Assembly (NCBI RefSeq): GCF_003034965.1
Contig: NZ_PZKE01000005.1
Coordinates: 124,001-188,000 of the forward strand
Length of the DNA: 64,000 bases
From: Fuscovulum blasticum DSM 2131
Lineage (GTDB): Bacteria > Pseudomonadota > Alphaproteobacteria > Rhodobacterales > Rhodobacteraceae
Reading direction: 5' to 3'
The position numbers and the translations under genes were made by a program. Numbering within the stretch: position 1 is the first letter of the stretch; each line of letters opens with the position of its first letter. This document shows, in pieces, positions 23,010 through 39,801 of this stretch. Under the pieces are notes generated by a model. That model was not told the origin of the DNA. It saw only the letters and a list, made by a program, of their open reading frames with translations, and ran no database searches.

Positions 23010-24686
23010 TCATCGCGGCCAAAGGTGCGCGGCCTCATCCGCCGTGTAGCGGCCCAAGGCCACATCTTCGGCAACCCGGGCCGGATCACGCGCCGCCGGA
23101 TCACCATAGCCACCGCCGCCGGGCGTGCGCACCCGCACCCGGTCACCGGGTTGCAGCACGATGTCCTGCGCCTTGGACAGGTGTTCTGGAATGACCACCC
23201 TGCCGCCCTGATGGATTTCCACCCGGTTCACCGCACCATCCTGCCCGCCAAGCGCCCCCTGCGGCCCGGTGCGGCCATGGTCCATCACAAAGGACGCCCG
23301 TGCGGTGCCGCGCAGAAGCTCGATCTCGTAATCCAGCCCCATGCCGCCCCGGAATTGCCCCGCCCCGCCACTGCCTTCGTGCAGCGCGTAGCGGCGGTAA
23401 AGCACCGGGTATTTCTGTTCCATGATCTCGACCGGCGGCGCCTTGGAAATGCCGATTGTCGAACATCCGTTCGCAATGCCGTCGCCCCCGGCAAAGCCGC
23501 CATAGCCACCGCCCGAGATCTGATACATCACATAGCCCGATCCGGTTTCCGGGTCGTTGCCACCAAGGCCGAAATTGCCGCTGGTGCCGGCGGGCGCCGC
23601 CGTCACCCGGTCCGGGATCGCCTGCACCAGCGCCGCGAACACCGCCTCGGCAATGCGCTGGCTGACCTCGGCCGCGCAGCCCGACACCGGGCGCGGATAT
23701 TGCGCATCCAGAAAGGTGCCCTCGATGCCGGTCACGTTCAGCGGTTCAAAGGCACCGGCGCTGATCGGCACATCGGGGAAGATATGGCGCATCGCCAGAT
23801 AGACCGACGACAGCGTGGTCGCCCGGACCGAGTTCATCGGGCCCATGCAGGGCGGCGACGATCCGGCGAAATCGAACGTCAGCCCGTCCCCCCGCCGGGT
23901 GACGGTCAGCGCAATGGTCAGCGGTTCATTCACCACGCCATCGCTGTCGATAAACGCCGTGGCCTGGTAGCTGCCAACGGGGATCAGCCCGATCATCGCC
24001 CGCATCTGCCGCGCCGCCAGATCGCGCATCCGCGCCACGGCCTCGGTCACGGTGTCGTCGCCATAGCGGTCCAGCAACTGGCCCAGCCGTTCGGCGCCCA
24101 CCATCAGCGCGCTGGCCTGCGCCTTCACATCGCCGATGCGCTGGTCGGCCACGCGGATGTTCGACTGGATGATGGCCCAGATTTCCGCGTCCAGTTGTCC
24201 CTTCTTGAACAGCTTGACCGGCGGCAGTCGCAGCCCTTCCTGCTCGGCACTGATGGCGCTGGCCGAAAACCCGCCCGGCACCATGCCGCCGGTATCGGGC
24301 CAGTGCCCGGTGTTCGACAACCAGCACCAGATGCGCCCCTGCCGCCAGACCGGCATGGCGAAACGCACATCCATCAGATGCGTGCCGCCCAGATAGGGAT
24401 CGTTGACGATATAGATGTCGCCGGGCTCGGGCGCGGCTGTGATACCTGCCCTGATGCGTTCCACCAGCGTGCGCGTTGAAAACTGCATCACCCCGACAAA
24501 GACCGGCAGACCCTTCGATCCTTGCGCGATCAGACTGCCGTCTTCCGCCGAATAGATCCCGTCCGAACGGTCGTCGGCCTCGGCAATCACCGGCGAAAAT
24601 GCAGCGCGCGAAAAGGTCAGGTCCATCTCGTCGCAGACCTGCTGCAAGCCGGCTTGGATCACGGCCAGAGTGACGGGGTCGATCAT
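23010..24686 (-). CDS. hyuB: Hydantoinase/oxoprolinase beta subunit (HyuB)
   Basis: A 558-residue member of the N-methylhydantoinase B / acetone carboxylase family, partner of HyuA in ATP-dependent cleavage of cyclic amides. Start MIDPVTLAVIQAGLQQVCDE is typical. Further landmarks are DPYLGGTHLMDVRFAMPV, NFGLGGNDPETGSGYVMY, HEGSGGAGQFRGGMGLDYEI and the end LQPGDRVRVRTPGGGGYGDP. Its ATG overlaps the hyuA stop by ATGA. The true substrate cannot be read from sequence; context suggests a lactam formed from an N-heterocycle. Confidence 0.93.
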   Translation of the reverse strand: MIDPVTLAVIQAGLQQVCDEMDLTFSRAAFSPVIAEADDRSDGIYSAEDGSLIAQGSKGLPVFVGVMQFSTRTLVERIRAGITAAPEPGDIYIVNDPYLGGTHLMDVRFAMPVWRQGRIWCWLSNTGHWPDTGGMVPGGFSASAISAEQEGLRLPPVKLFKKGQLDAEIWAIIQSNIRVADQRIGDVKAQASALMVGAERLGQLLDRYGDDTVTEAVARMRDLAARQMRAMIGLIPVGSYQATAFIDSDGVVNEPLTIALTVTRRGDGLTFDFAGSSPPCMGPMNSVRATTLSSVYLAMRHIFPDVPISAGAFEPLNVTGIEGTFLDAQYPRPVSGCAAEVSQRIAEAVFAALVQAIPDRVTAAPAGTSGNFGLGGNDPETGSGYVMYQISGGGYGGFAGGDGIANGCSTIGISKAPPVEIMEQKYPVLYRRYALHEGSGGAGQFRGGMGLDYEIELLRGTARASFVMDHGRTGPQGALGGQDGAVNRVEIHQGGRVVIPEHLSKAQDIVLQPGDRVRVRTPGGGGYGDPAARDPARVAEDVALGRYTADEAAHLWPR

Positions 24687-26704
24687 GCGCCCACCTCCAC
24701 GATCAGGTTGCCATCGGCATCCGAGGTGACATGACAGCCCGGTTCGACCACCAGCGTCGTATCCATCTGCTCGATGATCGCCGGTCCGGTCAGTGACAGG
24801 TCCAGCGGCAGGTGATCGCGCCAGTAGACCGGGGTTTCCACCCAACCGCCGGCGAACCAGACAGGGCGGCTGCCCGCCGGTTCGGCCTTTGGCTTGCGCC
24901 CGACCGGGTCGATCAGCCGCGACAGGTCCAACTCGGTCCGCCGTCCGGTCACACTGACGTTCAGGTTCATCACACTTGCGCGGATTTCCGTCAGATCCAC
25001 CTTGAACCGGGCGTGATAGGCCGCCTCGAAGAGGCGTTGCAGGTCTTGCCGCGTGGGCCGGGCGGTGGGTAACGCCACCCGCAGCAGATGGGTCTGGCCA
25101 ACGAACTGCATGTCGGCCGAATATTCGGCGCGGATGTCGCGGACCTCGATCCGTTCTTCACCGATCAACCGCCGCCCCTCGGCCTCTTGCGCGGCCAGAA
25201 CGGCGTGAACCTCGTCCATCTCCAGCGCATCCAGCGGCCGGTTCAGCGTGCGAACGAAATCGTGCCGCAGGTCGGCCACCACGCAGCCAAGCGCATTGGT
25301 GATGCCCGGTCGGGCCGGCACCAGAACCTTCGGCACCGACAACTCGCGGGCCAGCGCCACCGCGTGCAGCGGCCCCGCACCGCCGAAGGCGAACAGCGCG
25401 AAATCGCGCGGATCGGCGCCAAGCGAAATCGACACCATCCGCACCGCACCCGCCATATGGGTATTGGCGATGCGCACCACCGCCTCGGCTGCCGCTTCGA
25501 TTGACAGGCCCAGGGGCCGCCCGATCTGGTCGGACATGGCCTGCCGCGCGGCCTCGGCCGCCTGGCCGAAGCGGGCGGCGGGCAAGCGGCCAAGGATCAG
25601 GTTCGCGTCCGAGATGGTGACGCGCGTGCCACCCCGGCCATAGCAGATGGGTCCGGGCGTGGACCCCGCGCTTTCCGGCCCCACCCGCAACATGCCGCTT
25701 TCATCGACCCGCGCGATCGACCCGCCCCCGGCGCCCACCGTCCGCACATCCACCATCGGCACATGGATCGGCATGGCATATTCCACCTCGATCTCGTTCG
25801 AGACCGGGGCCACCCCGTTGCGGATCATGGCAACATCGGTGCTGGTGCCGCCCATGTCATAGGTCAGCAGGTTCGCCACACCGGCCCGCCGCCCGGTGGC
25901 AACCGCCGCCATCACGCCCGAGGCCGGGCCCGACATCACGGTCTTCACCGCCTCGCGCGCGACATGGGCCGCGCTGACCATGCCGCCGTTGCCGTTCATC
26001 ACCAGCAGATCGCGGGCATAGCCGCGCGCCTTCAACTCCCCCGCCAGACGCGCGATATACCGCTCAAGAATGGGCTGAACGCTGGCGTTCACCGCAGCGG
26101 TCACGCCGCGCTCATATTCCCGCGCCTCGGACAGCAGGGCGTGGCCCAGGGTGATATAGCCATTCGGCCAAAGACTTGCGGCAAGTTCACCCGCCCGCAG
26201 TTCATGCGCAGGGTTGGCATAGGCATGAAGGAAATGGATCACCAGCGCCTCGCAGCCCTGATCGCGCAACTGCACGACGGCGGCTTGCAGCGCATCCTCA
26301 TCCAGCGTCGTGACCACGCGGCCACGGGCATCCATCCGTTCGGGCACCTCCAGCCGCAGGTTGCGCGGAATGATGGGAACGAAGCTGCCCGACATGCCAT
26401 AGGCGTTCGGCCGGGTGCGGCGCCCCAGTTCCAGCACGTCACGGAACCCGGCGGTGGTGATCAGCCCGGTTTTTGCCAGTCGCCGTTCCAGCACGGCATT
26501 GGTGGTGGTGGTGGTGCCATGGACGATCAGGTCAAGATCGGCAAGCCGCGCCCCGGCCGCGTCAAACGCAGCCAGCACACCGGGGGCCTGATTGGGCAGG
26601 CTGGTGGGCACCTTGGCCAGTTTCACCCCACCCGAGGCCGGATCGAAAATCACCAGATCGGTAAAGGTTCCGCCGACATCGACGCCGGCAACCAGGCCGG
26701 TCAT
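24683..26704 (-). CDS. hyuA: Hydantoinase/oxoprolinase alpha subunit (HyuA), ATP-dependent
   Basis: A 673-residue ASKHA-fold subunit that activates the cyclic amide with ATP. N-terminal VAGVDVGGTFTDLVIFD is the phosphate motif, HGTTTTTNAVLERR follows, and LTYDMGGTSTDVAMIRNG and VGAGGGSIARVDESG are family signatures. Start ATG 26704 (MTGLVAGVDVGG) is preceded by CAGGAGAGA. It opens the last two-gene block of the catabolic cluster; the three-hairpin repeat lies between it and livF, and a second inverted copy follows hyuB. Confidence 0.93.
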   Translation of the reverse strand: MTGLVAGVDVGGTFTDLVIFDPASGGVKLAKVPTSLPNQAPGVLAAFDAAGARLADLDLIVHGTTTTTNAVLERRLAKTGLITTAGFRDVLELGRRTRPNAYGMSGSFVPIIPRNLRLEVPERMDARGRVVTTLDEDALQAAVVQLRDQGCEALVIHFLHAYANPAHELRAGELAASLWPNGYITLGHALLSEAREYERGVTAAVNASVQPILERYIARLAGELKARGYARDLLVMNGNGGMVSAAHVAREAVKTVMSGPASGVMAAVATGRRAGVANLLTYDMGGTSTDVAMIRNGVAPVSNEIEVEYAMPIHVPMVDVRTVGAGGGSIARVDESGMLRVGPESAGSTPGPICYGRGGTRVTISDANLILGRLPAARFGQAAEAARQAMSDQIGRPLGLSIEAAAEAVVRIANTHMAGAVRMVSISLGADPRDFALFAFGGAGPLHAVALARELSVPKVLVPARPGITNALGCVVADLRHDFVRTLNRPLDALEMDEVHAVLAAQEAEGRRLIGEERIEVRDIRAEYSADMQFVGQTHLLRVALPTARPTRQDLQRLFEAAYHARFKVDLTEIRASVMNLNVSVTGRRTELDLSRLIDPVGRKPKAEPAGSRPVWFAGGWVETPVYWRDHLPLDLSLTGPAIIEQMDTTLVVEPGCHVTSDADGNLIVEVGA

Positions 26705-26835: not shown

Positions 26836-27534
26836 TCAGACCCCCACATAATCAAGAAACTGCCGCGCGCCCGGTTCCAGACGGCGCGCCTCGACCATCT
26901 CTTCCACACGGCCATGCGCCATGAAGGCCACGCGGTCGGCCATCTTCAGCACCGCCTCGACCCGCTGTTCGACAAGCACCACCGCCACCCCTTCGGCACG
27001 CAGGCGCAATACGGCATCGCGGATCAGCGCGATCATGCTGGGCTGCAGCCCCTCGGTCGGTTCGTCCAGCAGCAGCACCTTCGGTTCAAGACACAGCGCC
27101 CGGCCGATCGCCAGCATCTGCTGTTCGCCGCCTGACAGCGTGGCGGCAGGTTGGGCCAGACGTTCGCGCAACCGGGGAAACAGCGTCAGAACATGCTCGC
27201 GCACCTCGGCCCGGTTGCCACGGGTCAGGCCCCCGACCTCAAGGTTTTCGGCCACGGTCAGCGGGCCGAACAGGCGGCGGCCCTGCGGCACCCAGGCCAG
27301 CCCATGGCACGGAATCCGATGTGCCGGCAGCCCTTGCAGATCAACGCCGCCAAGCCGGACGCTGCCCTCGGCCAGCTCGACCAGCCCCATGATCGCCTTC
27401 AGAAGCGTGGTCTTTCCAGCGCCATTGCGGCCCATGAGACAGGTCACCTGCCCGGCCCGCGCCTCGAAATCGACACCGCGCAACACGGTCACCGGGCCAT
27501 AGCCCGCAGTCAGCCCCTTCACCTCAAGCGCCAA
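26836..27534 (-). CDS. livF: Branched-chain-amino-acid-type ABC transporter ATPase LivF
   Basis: A 232-residue ATPase of the HAAT importer family. Walker A GRNGAGKTT, signature LSGGEQQMLAIGRAL, Walker B VLLLDEPTEGL and switch His in VVLVEQRVEAV region are in order. It overlaps livG by 11 bases and closes the transporter gene set. HAAT importers take amino acids, urea, amides or aromatic acids; the surrounding genes suggest an N-heterocycle or derivative rather than leucine (inference). Confidence 0.93.
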   Translation of the reverse strand: MALEVKGLTAGYGPVTVLRGVDFEARAGQVTCLMGRNGAGKTTLLKAIMGLVELAEGSVRLGGVDLQGLPAHRIPCHGLAWVPQGRRLFGPLTVAENLEVGGLTRGNRAEVREHVLTLFPRLRERLAQPAATLSGGEQQMLAIGRALCLEPKVLLLDEPTEGLQPSMIALIRDAVLRLRAEGVAVVLVEQRVEAVLKMADRVAFMAHGRVEEMVEARRLEPGARQFLDYVGV

Positions 27535-28231
27535 GATAGGCCTCCTGCACGGCGGGGCTGGCGCGCACCTCGGCGGGCGTGCCGCGGGCCAGCACCTGAC
27601 CGAAGTTCAGCACGGTGATCCGGTGGGCCAGGTCCATCACCACCTCCATGTTGTGCTCGATCAGCAGGACGGCCACCTCGGGCACCAGGCTGCGGACCAG
27701 ATCCTTGAAATTGCCGATCTCGCCCGCGGCCAGCCCCTGTGTCGGTTCATCCAGGATCAGCACGCGCGGTTGCAGCGCCAGCCCCATGGCCAGTTCAAGC
27801 AACCTCTGGTGGCCGTATGACAGGGTTCCAGCGATGTCGCTTGCCATCGCCTCAAGCCCGACGCGGGACAGCGCCGCCGCCACCGCGCCGCGCAGGTCAC
27901 GCGCCGATCCGCGCCCGCCCTGCACCGCCAACGCCACATTGTCAAAGACCGACAGCCCCGGAAAGACCGAGGTGATCTGGAAGGTATAGGCAATGCCCTT
28001 GCGCACCCGGGCATGGGCCGGCAGGCGGGTGATGTCCTCGCCCACCAGCCGGATACTGCCCGCCTGCACCGGCACCCGGCCGGACAGGAGCGAGACAAAG
28101 GTGGTCTTGCCGGCGCCATTGGGGCCGATCAGGGCGTGAATCTCACCCGCCGCAAGGTCGAAATCCACCCCGTCCACGGCGCGCAGACCGCCGAAATGCC
28201 GGGTCAGGCCGCGGGCTTCCAGAAGGCTCAT
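27524..28231 (-). CDS. livG: Branched-chain-amino-acid-type ABC transporter ATPase LivG
   Basis: A 235-residue partner ATPase with Walker A GPNGAGKTT, signature LSYGHQRLLELAMGL and Walker B VLILDEPTQGL, plus the HAAT-specific run LTRHFGGLRAVDGVDFDLA near the start. The ATG overlaps the livM stop by ATGA. Shares a heterodimer with LivF to power the LivHM channel. Confidence 0.93.
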   Translation of the reverse strand: MSLLEARGLTRHFGGLRAVDGVDFDLAAGEIHALIGPNGAGKTTFVSLLSGRVPVQAGSIRLVGEDITRLPAHARVRKGIAYTFQITSVFPGLSVFDNVALAVQGGRGSARDLRGAVAAALSRVGLEAMASDIAGTLSYGHQRLLELAMGLALQPRVLILDEPTQGLAAGEIGNFKDLVRSLVPEVAVLLIEHNMEVVMDLAHRITVLNFGQVLARGTPAEVRASPAVQEAYLGA

Positions 28232-29160
28232 GGCAGCCCCCGGAAGAAACGGTCGCGCAGCGCGCCAAGAATCCCCTTGGGCGCGAACAGGACGACAATC
28301 ACCAGCACCGCGCCGACAATGAACAGCCAGGCCGAGGTCAGGTCGTTCGCCACCTCGATCAGGGCGAACATCAGGACGGCCCCCAGCAGCGGCCCGGCCA
28401 CAGTGCCCGCGCCGCCCAGCAGAACGTAAAGCATCGGCAGGATGGAATACTGGATAGTGGCAAAGCTGGCCCCGGCATAACCGAACAACACGCCATAAGC
28501 CGCCCCCGCCAGACCCGAGGCCGCCCCGGACAGCACTAGAACCGCCAGCTTGGCGGTGAACGGGTTGATGCCCAGCATCCGCGCGCGTTCCTCATTCTCG
28601 CGCAGCGCCACCATCACGCGGCCAAAGCGCGACCGCACCAGCGCCAGCGTGGCAAGGAAGGTGGCCGAGAACAGCGCCCAGGCCGTCAGATAGCGCGGCA
28701 GGTCGGTGGAAAGATCGGCGCCGAACAGCATCCGGCCCGAGGCGGGCAGCGCAAAGCCTTCGTCCCCGCCGGTCACGCCGTTGAAGTAAAGCAGCGTCAG
28801 GTACCCTGCCTGCGCGAACATCAGCGTCACGATCATGAAGCTGACACCTGCGGTGCGCAACGCCAGCAGCCCCGTGACCCCGGCGACGATACCGCCGCCC
28901 AGAAGGCCAAGGATCAGCGCTGGCGCGGCCCCAAGGCCCCAATGCCAGATCGGCAGCCCGGCGGCATAAATGCCGGCGGCGAAGAACAGCGCATGGCCCA
29001 GCGACAGAAGGCCGGTGTAGCCGAAGGCCAGATTGTAGCCCATGGCGAACACCGCCAGCACCATGATCCGCGCCATGTTGGTGGCGTGATAGGGCGGCAG
29101 CAGGAAGCCAAGCGCCAGCAGCAGCGCAACAACAGCCAGATGGGACGCCCAGACCTTCAT
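28228..29160 (-). CDS. livM: Branched-chain-amino-acid-type ABC transporter permease LivM
   Basis: A 310-residue polytopic inner membrane protein with about nine hydrophobic segments. The family signature appears as AMGYNLAFGYTGLLSLGHAL (residues about 40-60), and the cytoplasmic coupling region includes RSRFGRVMVALRENEERARM. The ATG overlaps the livH stop by ATGA, continuing the close-packed liv operon. Confidence 0.93.
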   Translation of the reverse strand: MKVWASHLAVVALLLALGFLLPPYHATNMARIMVLAVFAMGYNLAFGYTGLLSLGHALFFAAGIYAAGLPIWHWGLGAAPALILGLLGGGIVAGVTGLLALRTAGVSFMIVTLMFAQAGYLTLLYFNGVTGGDEGFALPASGRMLFGADLSTDLPRYLTAWALFSATFLATLALVRSRFGRVMVALRENEERARMLGINPFTAKLAVLVLSGAASGLAGAAYGVLFGYAGASFATIQYSILPMLYVLLGGAGTVAGPLLGAVLMFALIEVANDLTSAWLFIVGAVLVIVVLFAPKGILGALRDRFFRGLP

Positions 29161-30038
29161 GGGCTGCGCGTCCCGAACAGGCCCTGCGGGCGAAAGACCA
29201 GCACCATTGCCACCAGCAGCGTGGCCAGGATCTTGGCCAGTGTCGGTGAAAAGAACATGCTGATCACACCATCCGACAGCCCGATCACCAGCGCCGCAAC
29301 CAGCGTGCCGCGCAAGCTGCCAAGGCCGCCGATGATGACCACGATGAAGGACAAGAGCAGCGGATCGCCCCCCATCAGGTAATGCGCCTGGGTGATCGGT
29401 ACGATCAGCACGCCCGCCAGCGCCGCCAGCCCGGCGCCAAGCGCGAAGGTGCCCATATAGACGCGATCCACGTTGATGCCGAAGGCACGGGCCACGTCGC
29501 GGTCAACCTGCGTTGCCCGCATCACCAGACCAGCCTTTGTCCGGGTCATCAGCGCCCAGATGCCGGCCAGCACCACCCCGGCGGCCAGCACGACGAACAG
29601 CTTGTAGCCGGAATAGCCGAACCACGGCGTCTGCAGCCGCAGATCGAACGGCGCCGCCACGGGCCGGGCATCGGGGCCATAGAAGGTCAGCGCCGCCTGT
29701 TGCAGCATGTAAAGCAGGCCGATGGTGGCGACGATGGTCGCCTCGGGGTCGTAGTTCAGCCGTTTCAGCACCAGCGCATCGGCCAGTGCCGCCAGCGCCG
29801 CCACGGCAAGCGGTGCCACCACCACGGCCACGGCAAAGGCCAGCCAGGCCGGCCCCGGCACCATCCCGGTCACGAACCAGGCGATCACCGCGCCCAGCAT
29901 GAAGAACTCGCCATGGGCGACGTTCACCACCCGCATGACGCCGAACACCAGCGACAGGCCGGAAGCCGCCAGCGCCAGCACGGCGGCGGTCACCAGCCCT
30001 TCCATCAGGGCGAGCAGCAGGAAAGGTCCGAAGGCCAT
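29157..30038 (-). CDS. livH: Branched-chain-amino-acid-type ABC transporter permease LivH
   Basis: A 293-residue polytopic permease. Family landmarks are LVFGVMRVVNVAHGEFFMLG at the N-terminal side and GLVMRATQVDRDVARAFGIN for the coupling helix, then GLGSLRGTLVAALVIGLSDG. It is separated from the binding-protein gene by 83 bases that contain a GC-rich hairpin, a common way to make more binding protein than permease. Confidence 0.93.
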   Translation of the reverse strand: MAFGPFLLLALMEGLVTAAVLALAASGLSLVFGVMRVVNVAHGEFFMLGAVIAWFVTGMVPGPAWLAFAVAVVVAPLAVAALAALADALVLKRLNYDPEATIVATIGLLYMLQQAALTFYGPDARPVAAPFDLRLQTPWFGYSGYKLFVVLAAGVVLAGIWALMTRTKAGLVMRATQVDRDVARAFGINVDRVYMGTFALGAGLAALAGVLIVPITQAHYLMGGDPLLLSFIVVIIGGLGSLRGTLVAALVIGLSDGVISMFFSPTLAKILATLLVAMVLVFRPQGLFGTRSP

Positions 30039-30121: not shown

Positions 30122-31393
30122 TCAGAACGACATCGCGGTGTAATCCACCGCATCGGGGTAAAGCCCCTCGTCGATGGTGGTCGCGTGCACCTTGATCAGT
30201 TTGCCTGACTGGATCTGGCTGATGTACTGGCTGCCGAAAACTTGGTGCGTCTTGCCGTTGAACCGCTTGGCGCCCTGCGGGTGTTCCAGCCCATAGGGCA
30301 GATCGGTGATCGCCTCCATCGCCTCAACCAGTTTCTGCCGGTCGGCCGGGCCGGTATAGCCCGCGGCCTCCATCGCGTTCTTGATGAAATAGAGCGTCTC
30401 CCAGGTGCTGAACATATGGGCGTAGGTTGAGACATCCTTGGCATCGCTGACGCTGGCGCCGTTGTCGTCCACCCCCACGGCGGCGCGATAGGCGGCCTCG
30501 TGTTCGCCGGCATCGGCCGGTTTCACCCGCGGATGACCTTCCCAGAAATGGCTGCCCTCCAGGAACTCCAGCCCCGGCGTGGCGGTATCCACCGCCTCAA
30601 GGCTGTCAACGAAGCCGAACAGCGCCGGTTTCGCGCCGGTGCCGTAGAATTCGCCCAGCTCCTTGACAAAGGTCAGAACGGCCGGCCCGACCATGACGTG
30701 ATACAGCACCTCGGTCTCGGCCGGGATCTGCGGGAAATAGCGGGTGAAGCTGGTTTCGGTCGGCGGAATGGCGATCTGGGCGATCACTTCGCCGCCCTGT
30801 TCGGCCATGGCCTTGGTAAAGAAATCGCGGTGATCGTGGCCGAAGGCATAGTCGGGGAACACCATTGTCACCTTCTTGCCCAGGTTCGCCGCCACCCAGG
30901 GCGCCATGGTGGAAATCTGCGCCCGCACATCGGTGATGCCGGGTTGCAGCGTCCAGCGGTTCAGCGCGCCGCTGGCGACGTGGTAACCTTCGGAACAGAC
31001 CAGATAAGGCACCTTCAGCTCGCCCGCGCGCGGGGCCGACCCCATGACGACATGGGAAAACAGCGTGCCCATGACCAGATCGCAACCGGCCTGCTGGGTC
31101 AGCTTGTCCACCACCTCGGCGCCGCGCTTGGGATCGGTCGCGTCATCCTCGAACACGATCTCGACCGGACGGCCGGCGATGCCGCCCGCGTCATTGATCA
31201 GCTTCAGCGCGGCGGTCGCGGTGCGTTCATACCAGCGGCCATAGCTGGCGCCGATGCCGGTGCGGTGTAACTGGAACCCGATCTTGATCGGCGCGGCCTG
31301 CGCGCCCACCACGGCCGGCAGTGCCAAAGCCAGAAGCCCCGCCCCCGCCCCTTTCAGCAGCGCCCGCCGCGACGGCATCAGGAAATTCGTCAT
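30122..31393 (-). CDS. ABC transporter substrate-binding protein (HAAT family), Tat signal
   Basis: A 423-residue periplasmic solute receptor of the Peripla_BP_6 family. Start ATG 31393 follows GAGGAGAG. The leader MPSRRALLKGAGAGLLALAL is a twin-arginine signal ending near VVGAQA. Mature sequence begins APIKIGFQLHRTGIGASYG, the first lobe; INDAGGIAGRPVEIVFEDDA is a hallmark of the family. First gene of the liv group. Tat export implies it folds in the cytoplasm. The ligand is not predictable, but its place downstream of the hydroxylase/reductase genes points to their substrate. Confidence 0.9.
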   Translation of the reverse strand: MTNFLMPSRRALLKGAGAGLLALALPAVVGAQAAPIKIGFQLHRTGIGASYGRWYERTATAALKLINDAGGIAGRPVEIVFEDDATDPKRGAEVVDKLTQQAGCDLVMGTLFSHVVMGSAPRAGELKVPYLVCSEGYHVASGALNRWTLQPGITDVRAQISTMAPWVAANLGKKVTMVFPDYAFGHDHRDFFTKAMAEQGGEVIAQIAIPPTETSFTRYFPQIPAETEVLYHVMVGPAVLTFVKELGEFYGTGAKPALFGFVDSLEAVDTATPGLEFLEGSHFWEGHPRVKPADAGEHEAAYRAAVGVDDNGASVSDAKDVSTYAHMFSTWETLYFIKNAMEAAGYTGPADRQKLVEAMEAITDLPYGLEHPQGAKRFNGKTHQVFGSQYISQIQSGKLIKVHATTIDEGLYPDAVDYTAMSF

Positions 31394-31481: not shown

Positions 31482-32846
31482 TCACCCGACCCTTGCCGTG
31501 GACAGCAGCCACAGGCCAAGAACTGTATACCCGACCATCAATCCGGTCATCGGCACATGCGCCAGCGCCCGCGTGCCCGGCCCCGCCAGCTTGCACGACA
31601 GCACTACGGCCAGAAGATGCGCGCCCAGGATGGCCGTGAACTGCGCGCCATAGATAAGGGGCATGATGCGCGGATCGGTCAGGAAGCCGAAGGACACATA
31701 GAACGGTGGCAGACCAAGGAAGCTGTCGCCGGTGAAGAACGGATCATTCAGCGCGGCCAGCGTGTATTGGCCGGCGGTCAGCAGCATCACCAGATAATGC
31801 GCGGCATGATAGCCCGCCGCGATGGCCAGAAAGGACAGCATCAGCGGCCCCAGCGCAAAACCCGGCCCGCCAAGGACGCGGCCCAGCCAGACCATGCCCG
31901 GCACGGCCAGCAGCGTGATGGCCCAGACCGCCAGAAGCCCCAGCGTGTTGACCCAGACCACCGCCGACCGCCCCGTCGGTTCCAGCGGGTTTTCCCCGAT
32001 CAGGGCCTGCCACCAGAAGGTTTCGTTCAGCCCGTCGAAGGTCAGCGCCGCAAGGGCAAGGCACAGGAACATCACCGCCGAAGGCGCCAGGGGCACCATG
32101 CGCAGCACCTGCGCGCCGGGCGGGCCGGCCATCAGCCGGGCGCAGTTTCCTTCGACCTCAAGCCACAGCGGCGCGATGCGGGCGATGAAGCCGAACAGCA
32201 CGGTCAGGAACTCGCCCTTCTGCAACCAGTCCTCGCCTTCGGCCACGGCAAGAAGGAAGATCACGCCGTAATAGCAGGCGGCCACCGTCGCCAGCACCGC
32301 CGGATCGTCCGGGTAAAGCGAGATCATCTGGAACCAGGCAAACCCCGCATAGCCCAGCACCGCCGGAACATACCCCAGCCGGGCCAGTCCGACACGGCCG
32401 GTCCGCCCCAGCAGCAGCCGCGCAATCCGCACCGGCCCGGTCCAGGGGTTGATCGGCCGCCAGAGATTGCCGAAACCCATCGACCCCAGCGGCACCACGA
32501 TCCAGACCCCGGTCCAGAACACCAGCGTCATCAGGTTGTGCATCGGGTCGCGGCTGCCGGTCCAGCCGATGAACAGCAAGGCCAGAAAGCCCAGGAACCC
32601 CAGATAGGAAGACAGGGTTTCCGGCACCAGCACCGGCCGGTCCCACATCAGATGCGGCCGAAACGCCGGCAGGCGCGGCGCCACCGCCGCCAGAAGCGCG
32701 GTCAGCGCCACGGTCAGCGCGGCGGCGGTGATGTAATGCCCGGTCGGCAGCGTCAGGATGACCGAAGGCGGCAGGGCGCAGGCAAAGGCCACGCCGGGAA
32801 CAAGCGCAAGGATCAGTGTCGGGGTCAGCAGGCCCCTCTGGATCAT
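31482..32846 (-). CDS. Polytopic membrane protein, function unknown
   Basis: A 454-residue protein with roughly 11-12 hydrophobic segments. The ATG at 32846 (MIQRGLLTPTLILALVPGVA) overlaps the DUF1185 stop by ATGA. The first segment could be a signal anchor. A conserved-looking stretch WTGVWIVVPLGSMGFGNLW then RPINPWTGPVRIARLL lies between segments, with aromatic and Pro residues that look functional rather than structural. No transporter family is recognisable to me; a distant resemblance to proteins labelled 'fenitrothion hydrolase' in databases is a memory I cannot verify. Its position among catabolic genes and next to an importer suggests transport or a membrane-bound reaction on the same substrate. 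Confidence 0.82.
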   Translation of the reverse strand: MIQRGLLTPTLILALVPGVAFACALPPSVILTLPTGHYITAAALTVALTALLAAVAPRLPAFRPHLMWDRPVLVPETLSSYLGFLGFLALLFIGWTGSRDPMHNLMTLVFWTGVWIVVPLGSMGFGNLWRPINPWTGPVRIARLLLGRTGRVGLARLGYVPAVLGYAGFAWFQMISLYPDDPAVLATVAACYYGVIFLLAVAEGEDWLQKGEFLTVLFGFIARIAPLWLEVEGNCARLMAGPPGAQVLRMVPLAPSAVMFLCLALAALTFDGLNETFWWQALIGENPLEPTGRSAVVWVNTLGLLAVWAITLLAVPGMVWLGRVLGGPGFALGPLMLSFLAIAAGYHAAHYLVMLLTAGQYTLAALNDPFFTGDSFLGLPPFYVSFGFLTDPRIMPLIYGAQFTAILGAHLLAVVLSCKLAGPGTRALAHVPMTGLMVGYTVLGLWLLSTARVG

Positions 32847-33424
32847 CGCAACCCGTCCTCCCCCTTGACCTGATCCACCTCCAGCCCGCCCATGCGGGAA
32901 TGGACCCGGCCGCCGCGCGCCATGGCCAGCGCGAAAAGCACCTCGTTCGCGCGCGGCCCATCCTCGCAGGCGATGGTGATCACGTCGAAGCGTGACCGGA
33001 CATAAGCCGCGTTCAGATGGCCCAGCGGAATGTCCAGCGTGCTGCCAAGGCCGCCCACCTTCATGGCGCTTGGCACGATGGCGCGACATTCGCCCAGCCG
33101 GTCGCGCATCCCGTAGCCGCCCGAGACATGCCAGATCGCGCCGTGCTCATGTTCGCCGGCTTCGCCCACGATGGCGCCCTTGCCATAGGCATCAATGCCC
33201 TCGCGCCCGCCAAGCGCCGCGACCAGCCGGTCGGTCAGGCGCAGCGCCAGCGGCTTCAGCCATTCCATCGCCGGCTGAAGGTCGGGCTCGAAACGGCCGG
33301 CGAAGGGGTTGGAACAGATGGCATAGACCGCCCCCTTGACCGGGGCCGGGTCGGCCACAGGCCCGCCTTCGTGGAGGATTTCCTCCACCTGCACCACGAT
33401 CTTGCGCAGCTTGAACTCAGACAC
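32843..33424 (-). CDS. DUF1185 ('amino acid synthesis') family protein
   Basis: A 193-residue protein of the DUF1185/AA_synth family, whose label is only a prediction. It begins MSEFKLRKIVVQVEEILHEG. Conserved-looking parts are AICSNPFAGRFEPDLQPAME, GKGAIVGEAGEHEHGAIWHV and the end FDVITIACEDGPRANEVLFA. The overlap with the upstream UPF0280 gene is 8 bases and with the downstream membrane gene ATGA, so it belongs to the operon. The family recurs next to catabolic amidohydrolase or reductase genes, fitting a role in heterocycle breakdown rather than biosynthesis (inference). Confidence 0.87.
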   Translation of the reverse strand: MSEFKLRKIVVQVEEILHEGGPVADPAPVKGAVYAICSNPFAGRFEPDLQPAMEWLKPLALRLTDRLVAALGGREGIDAYGKGAIVGEAGEHEHGAIWHVSGGYGMRDRLGECRAIVPSAMKVGGLGSTLDIPLGHLNAAYVRSRFDVITIACEDGPRANEVLFALAMARGGRVHSRMGGLEVDQVKGEDGLR

Positions 33425-34256
33425 CTGTCGCCTCCCTTTCCGGCAGCGCCAGCGCGCCGGTCATCCTGCACTCACCCTGAAGGAAAAGAGCCGCCCCTTC
33501 AATCAGCCCGCGCGCGGCAAAGCCCTGCGCCGCGCGAAGGCCGGCATCCAGCGCCCTGCCCCGGTCATCCGGCGGCAGGGAAGGCACCGCGGTCGTCACG
33601 GCCCGCGCACCAAGATCGCTGTCGGCCTGCACCCTGCAGGCCGGGCGCCGCCCGATGCCCGGATGCCCCGGCAGATCAACCGCATTGGCGATCATCGTCG
33701 CCGCCGCATCCGCCGCCGCCGCGCTGCGCGCCACCACCGTGACCGCATCGGCAATCCCCAGCGACAGGCTGCGCCCGCGCCAGCCCGAGGTGGCGATGCC
33801 GCGCACCGGGTCTGCCGCGCGCACCGTCACCCGGTCCATTCCCCCGGTCACCGCCAGCGCGCAGGTCAGCGCCTGATCGGGGGCCAGCCAAAACGCAATG
33901 TCGCCACCATTGTTGGCATAGGCCCGCAACACGCCCGGCCCGGCCAGCGCCGCGACGACCTCATCCGCCACCGCGCCCGCAACCGCGGCCATCGGGGTGA
34001 TGAAGGCCGGGCGGAACGGCGCCACAGCCGCCGCCATGCACCGGGCGATGCGGCCCGACACGGCCGCTTCGGGCGACCGCAGAGCGGCAAGCTCTGACAC
34101 CAGTTCCTCAAGCACGGTTGCGAAGCGTGCGGCAGCGCGGGCATGGGCGGCCTGCACCGCCGCCGCCGACCCGAAGGCGGCCGCCACGATGTCGATCGGC
34201 CCGTGCTGCAAATGCAGCCGCCCGTCGGGCAGACGCGCGACAATCGCCCCGCTCAT
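33417..34256 (-). CDS. UPF0280 family protein (ApbE-like fold)
   Basis: A 279-residue member of UPF0280, distantly related in fold to the flavin transferase ApbE but lacking its known flavin-transfer motif. Signatures are FRPAFITPMAAVAGAVADEV (residues about 90-110), YANNGGDIAFWL and GIATSGWRGRSLSLGIADAV. The GGD and SLGIADAV segments are the best candidates for a metal or ligand site. Its ATG overlaps the end of the Fe-S reductase by ATGA, and the two are likely functional partners, perhaps in cofactor insertion (inference). Confidence 0.86.
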   Translation of the reverse strand: MSGAIVARLPDGRLHLQHGPIDIVAAAFGSAAAVQAAHARAAARFATVLEELVSELAALRSPEAAVSGRIARCMAAAVAPFRPAFITPMAAVAGAVADEVVAALAGPGVLRAYANNGGDIAFWLAPDQALTCALAVTGGMDRVTVRAADPVRGIATSGWRGRSLSLGIADAVTVVARSAAAADAAATMIANAVDLPGHPGIGRRPACRVQADSDLGARAVTTAVPSLPPDDRGRALDAGLRAAQGFAARGLIEGAALFLQGECRMTGALALPEREATGV

Positions 34257-35705
34257 TGCCGGGGCCAGGGTTGCAGATGGGCCTCGGTCGGATATTCGCC
34301 GCCTTCGGCCATGGTTTCAGAGAGGCTGCGGATGCTGCCCTCATGCCCGCCCATGGCAATGTAATCGGCTCGAGGCAGGGTGAATTCCAGCGGGGCCACC
34401 AGCGCCGGCGTCGGCACATAGCCGAAGGCGCCTTTGGGCAGGCGCGTCACATCGACCATGAAGGTGATCCCGCCGCCCGGCCAGACATAGGTTTCGGCGC
34501 CGCCGCTGGTCAGCCGGGTGATGCCGCCCTGCACTGATCGGGTCAGCCGCACCGGGTTCTTCGTCACCCCGGCGCGCAGACTGCCCCCCCGCGCCCCCCA
34601 TGAACAGCACGGTGCAAAGCGACGGTTCGCAATTCTCGTCGATCAGATCCACCGTGCGGCGCAGGCTATCCGGCAGGTCACGCGGCTGCGGATGCAGGTC
34701 GGCATCCAGTTCGTAATAGGCAAACTCTTCGCCGGTGGTCGAGACCATCAGCAACGTCAGCCCCGGACGTGCGCCTTTTTTCGGGTTCCACTCGCCCAGA
34801 ATCTCCAGCGGATCGGTCAGGCGGGTGCCCCCCCAGCCAAGGCCCGGTTCCGAGACCCTGAAATAGCGCCCCGGCGTTGACCGCTGGCCCTTGATGCGGA
34901 TGCCGGTCGGTTGCCAGCCCAGCACCCTGCCGGCCTGATGTTCACTGACCACCCCGGTAATGTGGTCATCGACCACCACCACCTCATCGACCAGCCCCTT
35001 CCATTGCGCCGCGAACATCCCGATGGTGGCCGAGCCGCAGCCAACCCGCATCCGCCGTTCGGGCGTGCCGTCCACCACCGGCGGCTGGCCTGCCTGCACC
35101 ACCACGATGGAACCGTGGTCAATCCGCATCTCGACCGCTTCGCCATTGCACAGCCGCAACAGTGCATCACAGGTGACACGGCCTTCCGCCTTGGTGCCGC
35201 CCGTCAGATGGTGCACACCGCCCAGCGACAGCATCTGGCTGCCGTATTCGGCGGTGGTGACATGGCCAACCGCCTCGCCGCCCACCCGCACGGTCGCGCC
35301 TTCGGGGCCAAGGAAACGGTCGGTGTCGATCTTCACCTTGACCCCGCAATAGGAAAAGATCGCCTCGGTGACCACGGTCACCATATCGGCCCCGTCGATG
35401 ATGGAAGAAACGATGAAAGGCGCGGGCTTGTAATCCGGGTAGGTGGTCCCTGATCCGATGCCGGTCACGAAGGCATCGGCGGGCACGGGGCTGCCATCCC
35501 AGTCACGCACGGCAAAGGGCACGATGCGGCTGCCCGCGTCCAGCGCGTGGCTCAGCATCACCACCGGATCGCTACGCACGATCCGGCCTGCGTGATTGGC
35601 ATAGCGGTCGCAGGCGCCGGTCTGCCCGGGCGCGATGTAGCACATCACCGGGCAGGCGTCGCAGCGGATCTTCTCGGCGGCCTCAGACAGTGGCGCATCG
35701 GTCAT
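34253..35705 (-). CDS. Fe-S reductase resembling 6-hydroxynicotinate reductase (frameshifted)
   Basis: Read from ATG 35705 the protein begins MTDAPLSEAAEKIRCDACPV, with a Cys-rich entry CDACPVMCYIAPGQTGACDR expected to bind an Fe-S cluster. It follows the 6-hydroxynicotinate reductase family for about 370 residues. At a run of seven G on the coding strand (34584-34590) the frame breaks: the reading frame goes on as QSARRGD, whereas removing one G restores GGSLRAGVTKNPVRLTRSVQ and a continuous C-terminal part ending at 34253 (SETMAEGGEYPTEAHLQPWP). Corrected length is about 483 residues, near family size. Either a sequencing/assembly indel or a real inactivating or phase-variable mutation. Known members reduce a hydroxylated pyridine ring with ferredoxin. 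Confidence 0.72.
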
Positions 35706-35789: not shown

Positions 35790-38471
35790 TCATTCCTGCC
35801 CCTCCATCGCGGCAAGGATGCGGTGCGGCAACGCGGGCGTGCGGGTCAGGACGGCGCCGGTGGCGTGGCGAATGGCGTTCAGGATGGCCGGGGCGGTGGG
35901 GATCAGGACGTGTTCCCCCAGACCTTTGGCGCCGAACGGACCTTCGGGATCGGGGATTTCCAGCAGGATGCTGTCGATAGGCGGCACATCGCCCGCGGTC
36001 GGGATCAGGTAGTCGTGCAGATTCTCGGTCCGGCCTGAAAGATATTCCTCCATCAGCGCAAGGCCGATGCCCTGCGCGATACCTCCCTCGATCTGGCCGG
36101 TCACCAGTTGCGGGTTGATCGCGCGGCCCAGATCATGCGCGGCGGTGATGTGATACAGGGTGACCGTGCCAAGCGCGCGGTCCACCGAAAGCTCAACCAG
36201 TTGGGCGCCATAGCCGTAAACGGCATAGGGCGTGCCCTGGCCATTCGCATCCAGCCCCGTTGTGGGCGGGTCATAGGTTTCTTCGGCAGACAGGGCATAG
36301 CCGCGGGCGTCAACCGGCAGAGCGGTAAGGTCGATGCGGCGCCGGACCGGGCCATCGGTAACGGTGATGCACCCCGGCGCAAGGTCTAGACGGGCACCCT
36401 GCCCCGCATTGGCCAGCCGCAGGGTCGCATGGCGCAAGGCGCGGCCCGCCTTTTCCGCCGCCCGCCCCGAAACGAAGGTCTGACGCGAGGCGCTGGTCTT
36501 GCCGGCGTCCGGCGTGATCGCGGTATCGCCGCCCAGCAGGCGCAGCGCGGCAACCGGCAGCCCCAGCGCATCGGCAGCGATCTGCGCAATCACGGTGTTC
36601 GAGCCCTGCCCGATGTCGGTTGCGCCCTGATGCAACACCACCTCACCGCCCGGCGTCATACCGATGCGGATGGTTGACGGGTTGGGCAAGGCGGTGTTGC
36701 CGCAGCCATACCAGCACGAGGCGACCCCCACCCCGCGCCCCGGCCCCTGCGCGGCCCAGTCCAGCGCGGCGCGCCAGCGCGGACGCAATGCCTCAAGACA
36801 GGGGCCGATGCCGACCGCCTGCAGGATCTGGCCCGTGGCGCTGCACTGACCGTCGCGCAGCGCGTTCAGGATGCGGAACTCCAGCCGGTCCAGCCCGGCC
36901 TTTTCCGCCAGCCGGTCATACAGCGTTTCCTGCCACAGCGCGCCCTGCGGCACGCCGAAGCCGCGAAACGCGCCCGAGACCGGGCCATGCGTATGCACGG
37001 CGCGGGCGCGGGCGGTGATGTTCGGCGTCAGATAGGGGCCGGACACATGAACCGGCACCCGGTTCGCCACAGTCGGCCCCCAACTGGAATAGGCCCCGGT
37101 GTTGAAGCGCCCCTCGAACACGATGCCGGTGATGCGGCCCCTGGCATCGCAGCCGATCCGCCCCGTCATCTCGGCCGGGTGGCGCTTGGTGGTCGAGGCC
37201 ATGCTTTCGGCGCGGGAATAGATCATCCGCGCCGGCCGTCCAGTGCGCAGCGCCACCAGCCCGATCAGCGGCTGCACCGACAGATCAAGCTTCGAACCGA
37301 AGCCGCCCCCCACGGCAGAGGGGATGATGCGCACCCGCTCGGCCGGCAGGCCCAGGACCAGCGCGGTATCCTCGCGGTCCATCCCCGGCGCCTGGGTGCA
37401 GGCCCGGATCACCAGCGTATCGCCCTCGATCCAGGCAACACCGGCCTCGGGTTCGATATAGGCGTGTTCGACGTAAGACGTGGTGAAACTGCCCTCGACC
37501 ACATGCGCGCTGGCGGCCAGCGCCGCCTCGGCATTGCCCTTCTGCACCCGCCCCTCGATCAGCAGGTTCGCCTTGCGGTCGGGGTGCAGCAGGTGCGCAC
37601 CTTCGGATTCAGCCTCGGCGGGTGTCAACACAGGCGGCAGCGGCGCCCAGTCCACGGGAAAGCCGTCAAGGCTGGCCTCGGCACCCGGTTCAAAGGCCAC
37701 CAGCGCCACACATTCGCCCCGGAACCGCGCGGGGGAACGGGCAATGGCGGGCTGGTCGGCAAAGGGCGGGATGACGGAAAAGGCGTTGCGGCCGGGAATG
37801 TCGGCAGCCGTAAAGACACCGGCCACGCCGGGCCGGGCCGCGAACCCGGCCAGATCGCCGAAGCGGAACGCCGCATGGGGATGGGGCGACCGCACCGCCT
37901 TGACGGTCAGCGCCCCCTCTGGCGCATGGTCGGCGCCGAAACTGTCGCCCGCGACCTTGGCCGCACCATCCAGCCGGACCAGCGCCGCCCCCACCGCCTG
38001 CCCGGCCGGCGGCGCATCGGCGGCAACCGCGGGCGCCGCATCGCAGACGGCAGCAAGGATCTTGCGGTATCCGGTGCAGCGGCACAGCACACCGCCAAGC
38101 GCGTCCATCGCCTCGGCCTCGGTCGGGGTCGGGTTGCGGGCCAGCAGCTCTGCCCCCGCAATCAGCATCCCCGGCGTGCAGATGCCGCATTGCGCCGCGC
38201 CATGGCGCAGGAAGGCCGCGCGCAGCCGGGTCAGTTCCGGCGTTTCCCCTTCCACCGTCACGATCTCGGCCCCGTCGGCCTGCCCCGCCGGCACCAGACA
38301 GGAACAGACCGAGCGGCCGTTCAGCAGCACCGAACAGGCGCCGCAATCACCGGCGTCGCACCCTACCTTTGTGCCCCGCGCCCCCAGCCGTTCGCGCAGC
38401 ACTTCGGACAACCGTTCGCCGGGGGGGGCCGCGACCTGCACTGCACGCCCATTCAGGCGAAAGCCGATCAT
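35790..38471 (-). CDS. Molybdenum hydroxylase, fused 2Fe-2S and Mo-binding subunit
   Basis: An 893-residue xanthine-dehydrogenase-family protein in which the 2Fe-2S subunit (residues 1-150) is fused to the molybdopterin subunit. Plant-type cluster ligands are Cys38, Cys43, Cys46 and Cys58 (GCDAGDCGACSVLLNG); the second cluster uses Cys95, Cys98, Cys130 and Cys132 (QCGICTPG, CRCTGY). Moco-binding runs include VGGGFGSKLDLSVQPL and HGPVSGAFRGFGVPQGAL. The catalytic Glu is likely Glu853 in FGAKGLGEHV. The FAD subunit is encoded just upstream with a 4-base overlap. Such enzymes hydroxylate electron-poor C-N positions of N-heterocycles, which suits the downstream ring reductase. Confidence 0.93.
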   Translation of the reverse strand: MIGFRLNGRAVQVAAPPGERLSEVLRERLGARGTKVGCDAGDCGACSVLLNGRSVCSCLVPAGQADGAEIVTVEGETPELTRLRAAFLRHGAAQCGICTPGMLIAGAELLARNPTPTEAEAMDALGGVLCRCTGYRKILAAVCDAAPAVAADAPPAGQAVGAALVRLDGAAKVAGDSFGADHAPEGALTVKAVRSPHPHAAFRFGDLAGFAARPGVAGVFTAADIPGRNAFSVIPPFADQPAIARSPARFRGECVALVAFEPGAEASLDGFPVDWAPLPPVLTPAEAESEGAHLLHPDRKANLLIEGRVQKGNAEAALAASAHVVEGSFTTSYVEHAYIEPEAGVAWIEGDTLVIRACTQAPGMDREDTALVLGLPAERVRIIPSAVGGGFGSKLDLSVQPLIGLVALRTGRPARMIYSRAESMASTTKRHPAEMTGRIGCDARGRITGIVFEGRFNTGAYSSWGPTVANRVPVHVSGPYLTPNITARARAVHTHGPVSGAFRGFGVPQGALWQETLYDRLAEKAGLDRLEFRILNALRDGQCSATGQILQAVGIGPCLEALRPRWRAALDWAAQGPGRGVGVASCWYGCGNTALPNPSTIRIGMTPGGEVVLHQGATDIGQGSNTVIAQIAADALGLPVAALRLLGGDTAITPDAGKTSASRQTFVSGRAAEKAGRALRHATLRLANAGQGARLDLAPGCITVTDGPVRRRIDLTALPVDARGYALSAEETYDPPTTGLDANGQGTPYAVYGYGAQLVELSVDRALGTVTLYHITAAHDLGRAINPQLVTGQIEGGIAQGIGLALMEEYLSGRTENLHDYLIPTAGDVPPIDSILLEIPDPEGPFGAKGLGEHVLIPTAPAILNAIRHATGAVLTRTPALPHRILAAMEGQE

Positions 38472-39280
38472 GCGCAGCTCTCCACCGCCCGGGCCACCAG
38501 CTCCCGCGCCGCCCGCCGGCGATAGGCCGCCGTGGCGCGCACATCGTCAATGGGCGACAGCGCCGCGTAATCCGCCTGTCGGGCCCGGTCCGCCGCCCCG
38601 GCCACCGGGCCAAGCAGCGCCGCCTCGACCGCAGGCAACCGGCTGGCAACCGGCCCGCAAGCGCCAACCGCCACTGCCGCCCGGGTGATACGGTCGCCGT
38701 CCACGGTCAGGCGAACTGCCGCCATGGCGATCGAAATCACCAGATAGGCCCGCGCGCCCAGCTTTTGAAAGGCCGACCGCCCGGTCAGGGCCGTTTCGGG
38801 GATCAGCACGGCGGCAAGAATTTCTCCGGCGCGCAGGTCCACCTTGCGCGGCCCCAGCAGGAACCGCGCCAGCGGCAGGCGTCGAGCCCCGGCCGCCGAC
38901 AGCAGTTCAACCTCGGCGTCCAGCGCCAGAAGCGGCGGCACCCCATCGGCCGCGGGCGAGGCATTGCAAAGATTGCCGCCGATAGTGCCGACATTCTGGA
39001 TCTGCCGCCCCCCCACCTGACGCGCCGCCTGTTGCAGCGCGGCGCAGGCGGGAGGAAGGCCAGCCTCTGCGATCTCGCTCCAGCTTGTGCAGGCCCCAAG
39101 GCGCAGGCCGCCCGAAAGGCTGATCCCGCGCAGCGCGGCCACCGAAGTCAGATCAACCACCGGCCCGACCAGACGCGAACCCTGCCCCGGATACAGGTCT
39201 GTGCCGCCCGCCAGCACCCGCGCACCGGAGGCCACTGCGGGGAACACCTCGCTCAGGGTTGCGGGACGGAGATAGCCCAT
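38468..39280 (-). CDS. Molybdenum hydroxylase FAD-binding subunit
   Basis: A 270-residue CoxM/XdhB-type subunit passing electrons from the 2Fe-2S clusters to an acceptor. FAD-contact motifs are VLAGGTDLYPGQG (about residues 25-37) and GTIGGNLCNASPAADGVPPL. Start ATG 39280 (MGYLRPATLSEVFPAV) is preferred over a longer in-frame start that would cross the divergent marR promoter. It is the first gene of the long minus-strand cluster and its promoter must lie in 39281-39366. Confidence 0.92.
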   Translation of the reverse strand: MGYLRPATLSEVFPAVASGARVLAGGTDLYPGQGSRLVGPVVDLTSVAALRGISLSGGLRLGACTSWSEIAEAGLPPACAALQQAARQVGGRQIQNVGTIGGNLCNASPAADGVPPLLALDAEVELLSAAGARRLPLARFLLGPRKVDLRAGEILAAVLIPETALTGRSAFQKLGARAYLVISIAMAAVRLTVDGDRITRAAVAVGACGPVASRLPAVEAALLGPVAGAADRARQADYAALSPIDDVRATAAYRRRAARELVARAVESCA

Positions 39281-39366: not shown

Positions 39367-39801
39367 ATGGGTATTTCTGATGCAATGGCCCTGCCCGGAT
39401 ATGACCTTGATGCACAGATCGGCTACCTGCTGCGGCGGGTCACGCAGCGGCATCTGGCGCTGTTCGGCCAAGCCATTCCAGAACTGACCACGATGCAATT
39501 CGCCGTGCTGGCACGTCTGGCCGAACTGGGCCCCCTGTCGCAAAACCATCTGGGGCGCGAGGCGTCGATGGATGCCGCCACCATCAAGGGCGTCGTCGAC
39601 CGGCTGATCCGGCAGGGGCTTGTGGTTACCACGCCAGATCCTGACGACCGCCGCCGCCTGACGGTCAGCCTGACAGAGACTGGCGCCACGCTGGTTACCT
39701 CACTTGTTCCGGCCGCGCTTGCGGTGACCGAGGCCACGCTGGCCCCGCTGACCACCGAAGAACGCGCGACGCTTTCCGCCCTTCTGGCACGTCTGGCCTG
39801 A
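39367..39801 (+). CDS. MarR-family transcriptional regulator
   Basis: A 144-residue winged-helix regulator. Start ATG 39367 (MGISDAMALPGYDLDAQIGY) follows GGGGAAGG. The DNA-binding core is LGPLSQNHLGREASMDAATI then KGVVDRLIRQGLVV, with the wing at TTPDPDDRRRLTVSLTETGA containing the typical DxRxR. It is divergent from the molybdenum hydroxylase operon and upstream of the flavin oxidoreductase gene, so it likely controls both. MarR proteins of aromatic or heterocycle pathways usually sense a pathway substrate or product. Confidence 0.9.
   Translation: MGISDAMALPGYDLDAQIGYLLRRVTQRHLALFGQAIPELTTMQFAVLARLAELGPLSQNHLGREASMDAATIKGVVDRLIRQGLVVTTPDPDDRRRLTVSLTETGATLVTSLVPAALAVTEATLAPLTTEERATLSALLARLA

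Follow-up and report, generated by a model that had tools for sequence, protein, structure and literature searches.

Do three contiguous genes that overlap by a few bases directly behind an iron–sulfur (Fe-S) reductase share one task, or do they belong to separate parts of a pathway? This question is raised by a locus of Fuscovulum blasticum DSM 2131 within a 64,000-nucleotide stretch of contig NZ_PZKE01000005.1, the whole of which was analysed and is termed the window hereafter. On the minus strand, genes encoding a UPF0280 (COG2122) protein (33417..34256, 279 aa), a DUF1185 (PF06684, AA_synth) protein of the alpha subfamily (32843..33424, 193 aa) and a polytopic membrane protein (31482..32846, 454 aa) follow the split gene of an Fe-S protein (34253..35705), whose orthologues are annotated as 6-hydroxynicotinate reductase (HNR). 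The reductase frame and UPF0280 overlap by 4 bp (ATGA), UPF0280 and DUF1185 by 8 bp (GTGTCTGA), and DUF1185 and the membrane gene by 4 bp (ATGA), which bears out the tight coupling noted in a preliminary description of this DNA. The same description proposed a joint task of all three proteins. Our analysis favours three modules of one degradation cluster, with UPF0280 belonging to HNR, DUF1185 acting after ring opening and the membrane protein attached to an importer; we give this reading as a whole an even chance of being right.

UPF0280 is an obligate partner of HNR in the phylum Pseudomonadota, of which one sample of 398 genomes was analysed together with 72,556 plasmid records. The window protein belongs to the NCBIfam family NF003322, with a score of 355.7 bits (cut-off, 290 bits). 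Proteins over this cut-off occurred in 32 of the 398 genomes, HNR occurred in 32, and the two genome lists were identical (Fisher test, 6e-48, uncorrected for kinship, the 32 genomes representing 16 genera). Two further weak matches to NF003322 and one 18.8-bit match to the HNR profile (genome G270) were discarded. In 28 of 29 gene-called loci HNR immediately preceded UPF0280, one gene separating the two in the other locus (L077), and coordinates indicated direct succession in the remaining three genomes. Neighbourhoods were counted in 105 HNR loci, namely 80 named loci (L102–L181) and 25 others; except for the window, each spans at most about 21 kb, many end at contig edges, and related genomes are not independent. 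UPF0280 was present in 77 of the 80 named loci; for the other three, the genome had a match outside the locus, which in one case was partial and below the cut-off. Among the plasmids, HNR was found in 26 records and UPF0280 in 27. The additional record belongs to Hydrogenophaga sp. BPS33, in which a C-terminal remnant of HNR lies directly upstream of UPF0280 and adjoins an IS1071 transposase gene. As a separate observation, this remnant and the open UPF0280 frame (8680-10195 of L203, plasmid pBPS33-1) are situated in a repeated Rieske-oxygenase region by IS1071 transposase genes, and the record gave matches to the UPF0280 query at four places.

The structure predicted for UPF0280 (predicted local distance difference test score, pLDDT, 91.5) retrieved PDB entry 2o34 at Z 19.8 and 19 ApbE-family entries at Z 15.1–13.3, and the next unrelated entry followed at Z 8.0. 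A profile comparison with ApbE gave a probability of 91.6 over 215 columns. The ApbE-like fold suggested in the preliminary description is thereby upheld, and since this fold coincides with perfect co-occurrence in the phylum, its suggestion that the role of UPF0280 is tied to the reductase is also well grounded. The window protein stayed under the Pfam gathering score for PF02424 (10.7 against 25.6 bits); eight of 20 relatives matched PF02424 at E up to 0.01, and L062 slightly exceeded the cut-off. The profile alignment retains GG(D/E), ATSG, VTV and D...T, with D183 and T187 invariant at the place of the ApbE D...T motif. In an excerpt of a study that mutated one Ftp, metal ligands are the only critical transferase residues found (PMC4767422), and by alignment D183 and T187 may be equivalents of these ligands. 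We infer from the co-occurrence, the ApbE fold and the retained D...T motif that UPF0280 would be a dedicated maturation or loading factor for HNR, which may bind a metal together with a nucleotide or flavin and install or guard a cofactor of HNR.

Two other roles for UPF0280 were weighed on the same evidence. It could be a true ApbE-type flavin mononucleotide (FMN) transferase that flavinylates HNR at a non-canonical residue, such as the threonine of TYPDYKPAP, a sequence present in all 103 HNR proteins counted. The ApbE fold, the invariant D183/T187 pair at the position of D...T, and the HNR genome G207, which is without any PF02424 ApbE match, are consistent with this role; the ApbE histidine and lysine are missing from UPF0280, however, and the [ST]GA[ST] motif described for ApbE clients in part of PMC8238504 is unconserved in HNR, so that we consider transferase activity rather unlikely. 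UPF0280 could also be a sulfur or persulfide maturation protein that serves Fe-S or cysteine sites of HNR. Excerpts of PMC5764234 report that COG2122 of Desulfovibrio is needed together with DUF39 and an NIL/ferredoxin protein and suggest a persulfide role, and cysteines are conserved in HNR, an N-terminal CxxC among them. However, DUF39 (PF01837) was found in none of the 398 genomes, and two HNR proteins searched against Pfam (E up to 10) gave no PF01837 match; sequence comparison thus reveals no client in common. A sulfur-related role appears distinctly unlikely to us, and maturation or loading of HNR remains our preferred role for UPF0280.

The evidence on DUF1185 depends on how the reduced ring is opened. 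An enamidase and HyuA never occurred jointly in the 105 HNR loci: enamidase was read in 26, HyuA in 36 and neither in 43 (Fisher test, 2.7e-6), the enamidase label being our reading of the gene-cluster sequence with no family search behind it. This exclusion points to HyuAB as an alternative enzyme for ring opening. No enamidase-cluster gene was present within the window, and HyuA (hydantoinase/oxoprolinase A, 24683..26704), the proposed lactam ring-opening subunit, and HyuB (hydantoinase/oxoprolinase B, 23010..24686) occur there instead, both on the minus strand. Close to HNR in the 105 loci, nicotinamidase-like genes were counted 11 times, nicotinate phosphoribosyltransferase-like genes five times and NicAB-type dehydrogenases 16 times, by names that rest on sequence reading and on plasmid annotations, for example those of the Neorhizobium NCHU2750 plasmid (nicA, nicB, fpr, hnr). 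Because of these neighbours, nicotinate fits as the substrate of such clusters, and the window cluster most likely serves reductive degradation of an N-heterocycle with nicotinate as substrate. In the predicted order of steps, a molybdenum hydroxylase would act first and HNR second, after which the ring would be opened, here by HyuAB instead of the enamidase.

DUF1185 is separable from HNR, and its three subfamilies are tied to ring-opening contexts. The window protein is a member of PF06684 (212.2 bits against a gathering score of 27), and the family was found in 59 of the 398 genomes, comprising 31 of the 32 HNR genomes and 28 genomes without HNR. A tree of 115 copies consisted of three groups, alpha (67 rows), beta (38 rows) and gamma (10 rows on the starred branch); gamma copies all came from loci without HNR, and alpha and beta copies derive from HNR-type loci. 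Annotated plasmid loci retrieved with a gamma query carry, in this order, DUF1185, an alpha/beta hydrolase, a flavin reductase, a luciferase-like monooxygenase (LLM) oxidoreductase and an aldehyde dehydrogenase, followed by ATP-binding cassette (ABC) transporter genes. The beta form was present in all 28 enamidase-like loci (26 by tree and two by best match, one of these a fragment), and several beta copies adjoin the enamidase gene apart from HNR. In L096 (genome G123), alpha, beta and the enamidase are located on a different contig from HNR. The alpha form was present in all 27 HyuA loci with a tree row, one of which carries beta too, and in 10 of the 36 HyuA loci no DUF1185 gene was called nearby. 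A strict rule of beta with enamidase and alpha with HyuA was rejected, because beta also occurs with HyuA and 17 loci hold alpha and beta together with the enamidase. What separates the groups is a difference of one residue in the loop that joins two invariant histidines, and the presence of Trp, Leu or Ile before the second of these. K82, E91, E93, H94, H99, R107, R143, E161, R173 and R177 are identical in all 115 copies.

Kitts reportedly described in 1992 that ring opening in Azorhizobium is followed by decarboxylation and then by oxidation to glutarate. In trigonelline breakdown, the ring-opened product ends as succinate semialdehyde. DUF1185 may accordingly be pictured as an enzyme that acts after ring opening, perhaps as the decarboxylase of the pathway, judging from its sequence contexts. 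It would convert 2-formylglutarate, or the enol or enamine form of this compound, and formylsuccinate in trigonelline-type operons; the step could be decarboxylation to the semialdehyde or tautomerisation. Given the chemistry of the ring-opened products, a 2-formyl dicarboxylate decarboxylase or tautomerase would fit both the nicotinate and the trigonelline settings. An excerpt of PMC9304392 describes the enamidase as converting 1,4,5,6-tetrahydro-6-oxonicotinate (THON) to 2-formylglutarate. A passage of PMC7913881, which calls TgnF a homologue of the DUF1185-type protein HcdD, states that TgnF stimulates TgnE-dependent oxidation of succinate semialdehyde. Such stimulation, together with the environmental sensing suggested in part of the DUF1185 structure paper (PMC2954203), could indicate a regulator, a chaperone or an allosteric hexamer without enzymatic activity. 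We regard a non-enzymatic DUF1185 as doubtful, since the ten invariant charged residues across three pathway-specific subfamilies look catalytic and the subfamilies track ring-opening chemistry.

The membrane gene is best seen as a transporter accessory. Its coding region is 31482-32846; a longer mechanical open reading frame (ORF), 31482-33089, was considered and rejected. The protein has 10 hydrophobic segments, the first within an N terminus that we read as signal-peptide-like, and no Pfam or NCBIfam match was obtained. Homologues were found in 14 of the 32 HNR genomes against one of 32 genomes without HNR, which were a non-random choice from genomes already listed. Six further loci, five of them from HNR genomes, all placed the membrane gene beside one substrate-binding type, which also adjoins it in the window (30122..31393, minus strand), followed by two permeases and two ATPases; a pncB-like gene preceded it in three of the six. 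Conversely, six called loci with this substrate-binding type included three with the membrane gene adjacent and one (L153) with a fragment at a contig edge. Distant homologues in a haloarchaeon and in Sagittula have different neighbours. Since the membrane gene stays with one type of substrate-binding gene, also at loci distant from HNR, we assign it to the transporter, and by this linkage its product may assist a branched-chain-type ABC importer in uptake of the pathway substrate. Transporter or membrane enzyme had been the two earlier guesses; the former is the better.

Several observations weigh against the division into three modules. The nicotinate assigned to the window cluster as its substrate is deduced from gene contexts. 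Transporter loci L118 and L123 have the relevant substrate-binding type and no membrane gene nearby. DUF1185 is absent altogether from eight of the 16 HNR genomes without a copy at the locus, one of the eight being an isolate, and from the HNR genome G139, so not every such pathway requires DUF1185; the eight genomes also imply that its place can be taken by another protein or by spontaneous chemistry. Beta DUF1185 accompanies HyuA in L086, L207 and L211, the last two being plasmid loci outside the tree-row table that carry alpha as well. His145 of DUF1185, present in 112 of 115 copies, is Arg in the window and in L215 and L216 of this genus. UPF0280 lacks the AKG lysine and the HxxDP histidine that are common to most ApbE rows of the profile alignment and matter to ApbE catalysis, and [ST]GA[ST] had only six scattered matches among 103 HNR proteins. 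Finally, according to part of PMC7913881, a published experiment failed to reveal any effect of HcdD.

A single complex, or a joint step of all three proteins with the reductase, would explain the overlapping genes in the window and the order kept in two congeners and one plasmid, but DUF1185 and the membrane gene lie apart from HNR in many genomes and have other constant neighbours, and we hold such a complex to be highly improbable. The expected co-occurrence with the reductase held for UPF0280, in the same 32 of 398 genomes; it failed for DUF1185, since 28 of its 59 genomes have no reductase and some genomes with the reductase have no DUF1185, and for the membrane gene, whose partner is the substrate-binding gene. 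Beyond the three modules, a more specific proposal is that DUF1185 constitutes a new family of 2-formyl dicarboxylate decarboxylases (or tautomerases), with subfamilies tuned to enamidase, HyuAB or luciferase-type opening, and that UPF0280 proteins are maturation factors, each specific for its client, built on an ApbE scaffold that lacks the usual catalytic residues. Taken together, these two parts are tentative and on balance improbable. If they were true, DUF1185 would convert the ring-opened product to the semialdehyde when nicotinate and trigonelline are broken down aerobically, and the client of UPF0280 would be HNR in aerobic Pseudomonadota and the DUF39 enzyme in anaerobes.

The split state of the reductase gene bears on whether the window cluster is intact. 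Both pieces fall into the HNR sequence family (745 and 153 bits with the HNR profile), and relatives on plasmids are annotated as 6-hydroxynicotinate reductase. The frame changes in a minus-strand run of seven G (34584-34590), with the 5' frame in ORF 34341-35705 and the 3' frame in ORF 34253-34567. The congeners have no such homopolymer at this site, and their HNR is intact. The portion past the run is open and 82% identical to that of congeners, which favours an assembly error or a very recent change over an old pseudogene. Decay of the cluster, hinted at by the long DUF1185 branch and H145R, was considered and dropped, as the congeners share H145R and keep an intact HNR. The AlphaFold model of HNR was weak (pLDDT 71.3) and Foldseek gave no match at E up to 0.001; no statement on its fold is therefore made. 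A second, independent HNR split at another position was observed in L084 (7225-8774, single contig of genome G016).

The complete minus-strand run comprises 13 genes, namely two for a xanthine-dehydrogenase (XDH)-type hydroxylase, HNR, UPF0280, DUF1185, the membrane protein, five for the ABC transporter, HyuA and HyuB. The hydroxylase consists of a flavin adenine dinucleotide (FAD) subunit (38468..39280) and a fused 2Fe-2S and molybdopterin subunit (35790..38471), the latter also present in 78 of the 80 named HNR loci. Besides the substrate-binding gene, the transporter is encoded by two branched-chain-type permeases (29157..30038 and 28228..29160) and two ATPases (27524..28231 and 26836..27534), and a MarR-family regulator is divergent on the plus strand (39385..39801). 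The gene order is conserved in two congeners (L215 and L216) with intact reductases. It is the same gene for gene on a plasmid of Fuscovulum ytuae (L206), whose intact reductase is annotated 6-hydroxynicotinate reductase; on the syntenic Fuscovulum plasmid, the gene in the place of the regulator is annotated MarR. In L133, L139, L181 and others, an XDH-type hydroxylase lies apart from HNR or NicAB-type dehydrogenases occur in addition, so two hydroxylases may feed one reductase in some loci. By eye, an ornithine cyclodeaminase-like gene was seen near the HNR clusters of L080, L104, L105 and six more loci, in some cases with a CaiB-like coenzyme A (CoA)-transferase gene.

Structures of DUF1185 were published in 2010 (PMC2954203), two unknown proteins in such clusters were published in 2012, and excerpts of PMC5764234 describe UPF0280/COG2122 as needed for homocysteine synthesis in Desulfovibrio. 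In the open-licence papers searched, subscription papers lying outside the search, neither DUF1185 nor UPF0280 in connection with HNR was found to have an assigned function. The exact co-occurrence of UPF0280 and HNR, the DUF1185 subfamilies with their ring-opening partners, the exclusion of enamidase and HyuA, and the linkage of the membrane gene with a transporter were not found in that literature and are apparently new. Two widespread families of unknown function thereby become concretely and cheaply testable, through the dependence of HNR on UPF0280 and the ring-opened substrate of each DUF1185 subfamily, and the exclusion of HyuAB and enamidase suggests a second route for opening the reduced pyridone ring.

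One of the closest known systems is the cluster for reductive nicotinate degradation via THON in Azorhizobium, Bradyrhizobium and strain SG-6C, described in part of PMC3511419, which has HNR and an ABC transporter together, as in the window; compared with it, the window has HyuAB in place of the enamidase, DUF1185 of the alpha type only, and a membrane gene in the operon. Both DUF1185 structures 3byq (BB2672, alpha signature) and 2qtp (SPO0826, beta signature) are clear homologues of the window protein. Excerpts of the structure paper (PMC2954203) propose amino-acid metabolism, consider a ligand shared with Bacillus chorismate mutase unlikely, and leave subfamilies unseparated, whereas three are separated here. 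Gamma DUF1185 operons resemble the trigonelline set in their LLM, flavin reductase, hydrolase and aldehyde dehydrogenase genes; TgnF of trigonelline degradation, called homologous to HcdD in a passage of PMC7913881, is likened by description, with no tgn sequence compared. UPF0280 shares the fold and the GG(D/E), TSG and D...T motifs with ApbE/Ftp FMN transferases (PF02424), but differs in having neither the Lys nor the His of ApbE rows and a client without the usual motif. The COG2122 protein DVU1097 of Desulfovibrio (2o34) is of the same family as UPF0280 by fold (Z 19.8) and profile; its genetic partner, in homocysteine synthesis according to excerpts of PMC5764234, is DUF39, whereas the partner of UPF0280 in the window is HNR.

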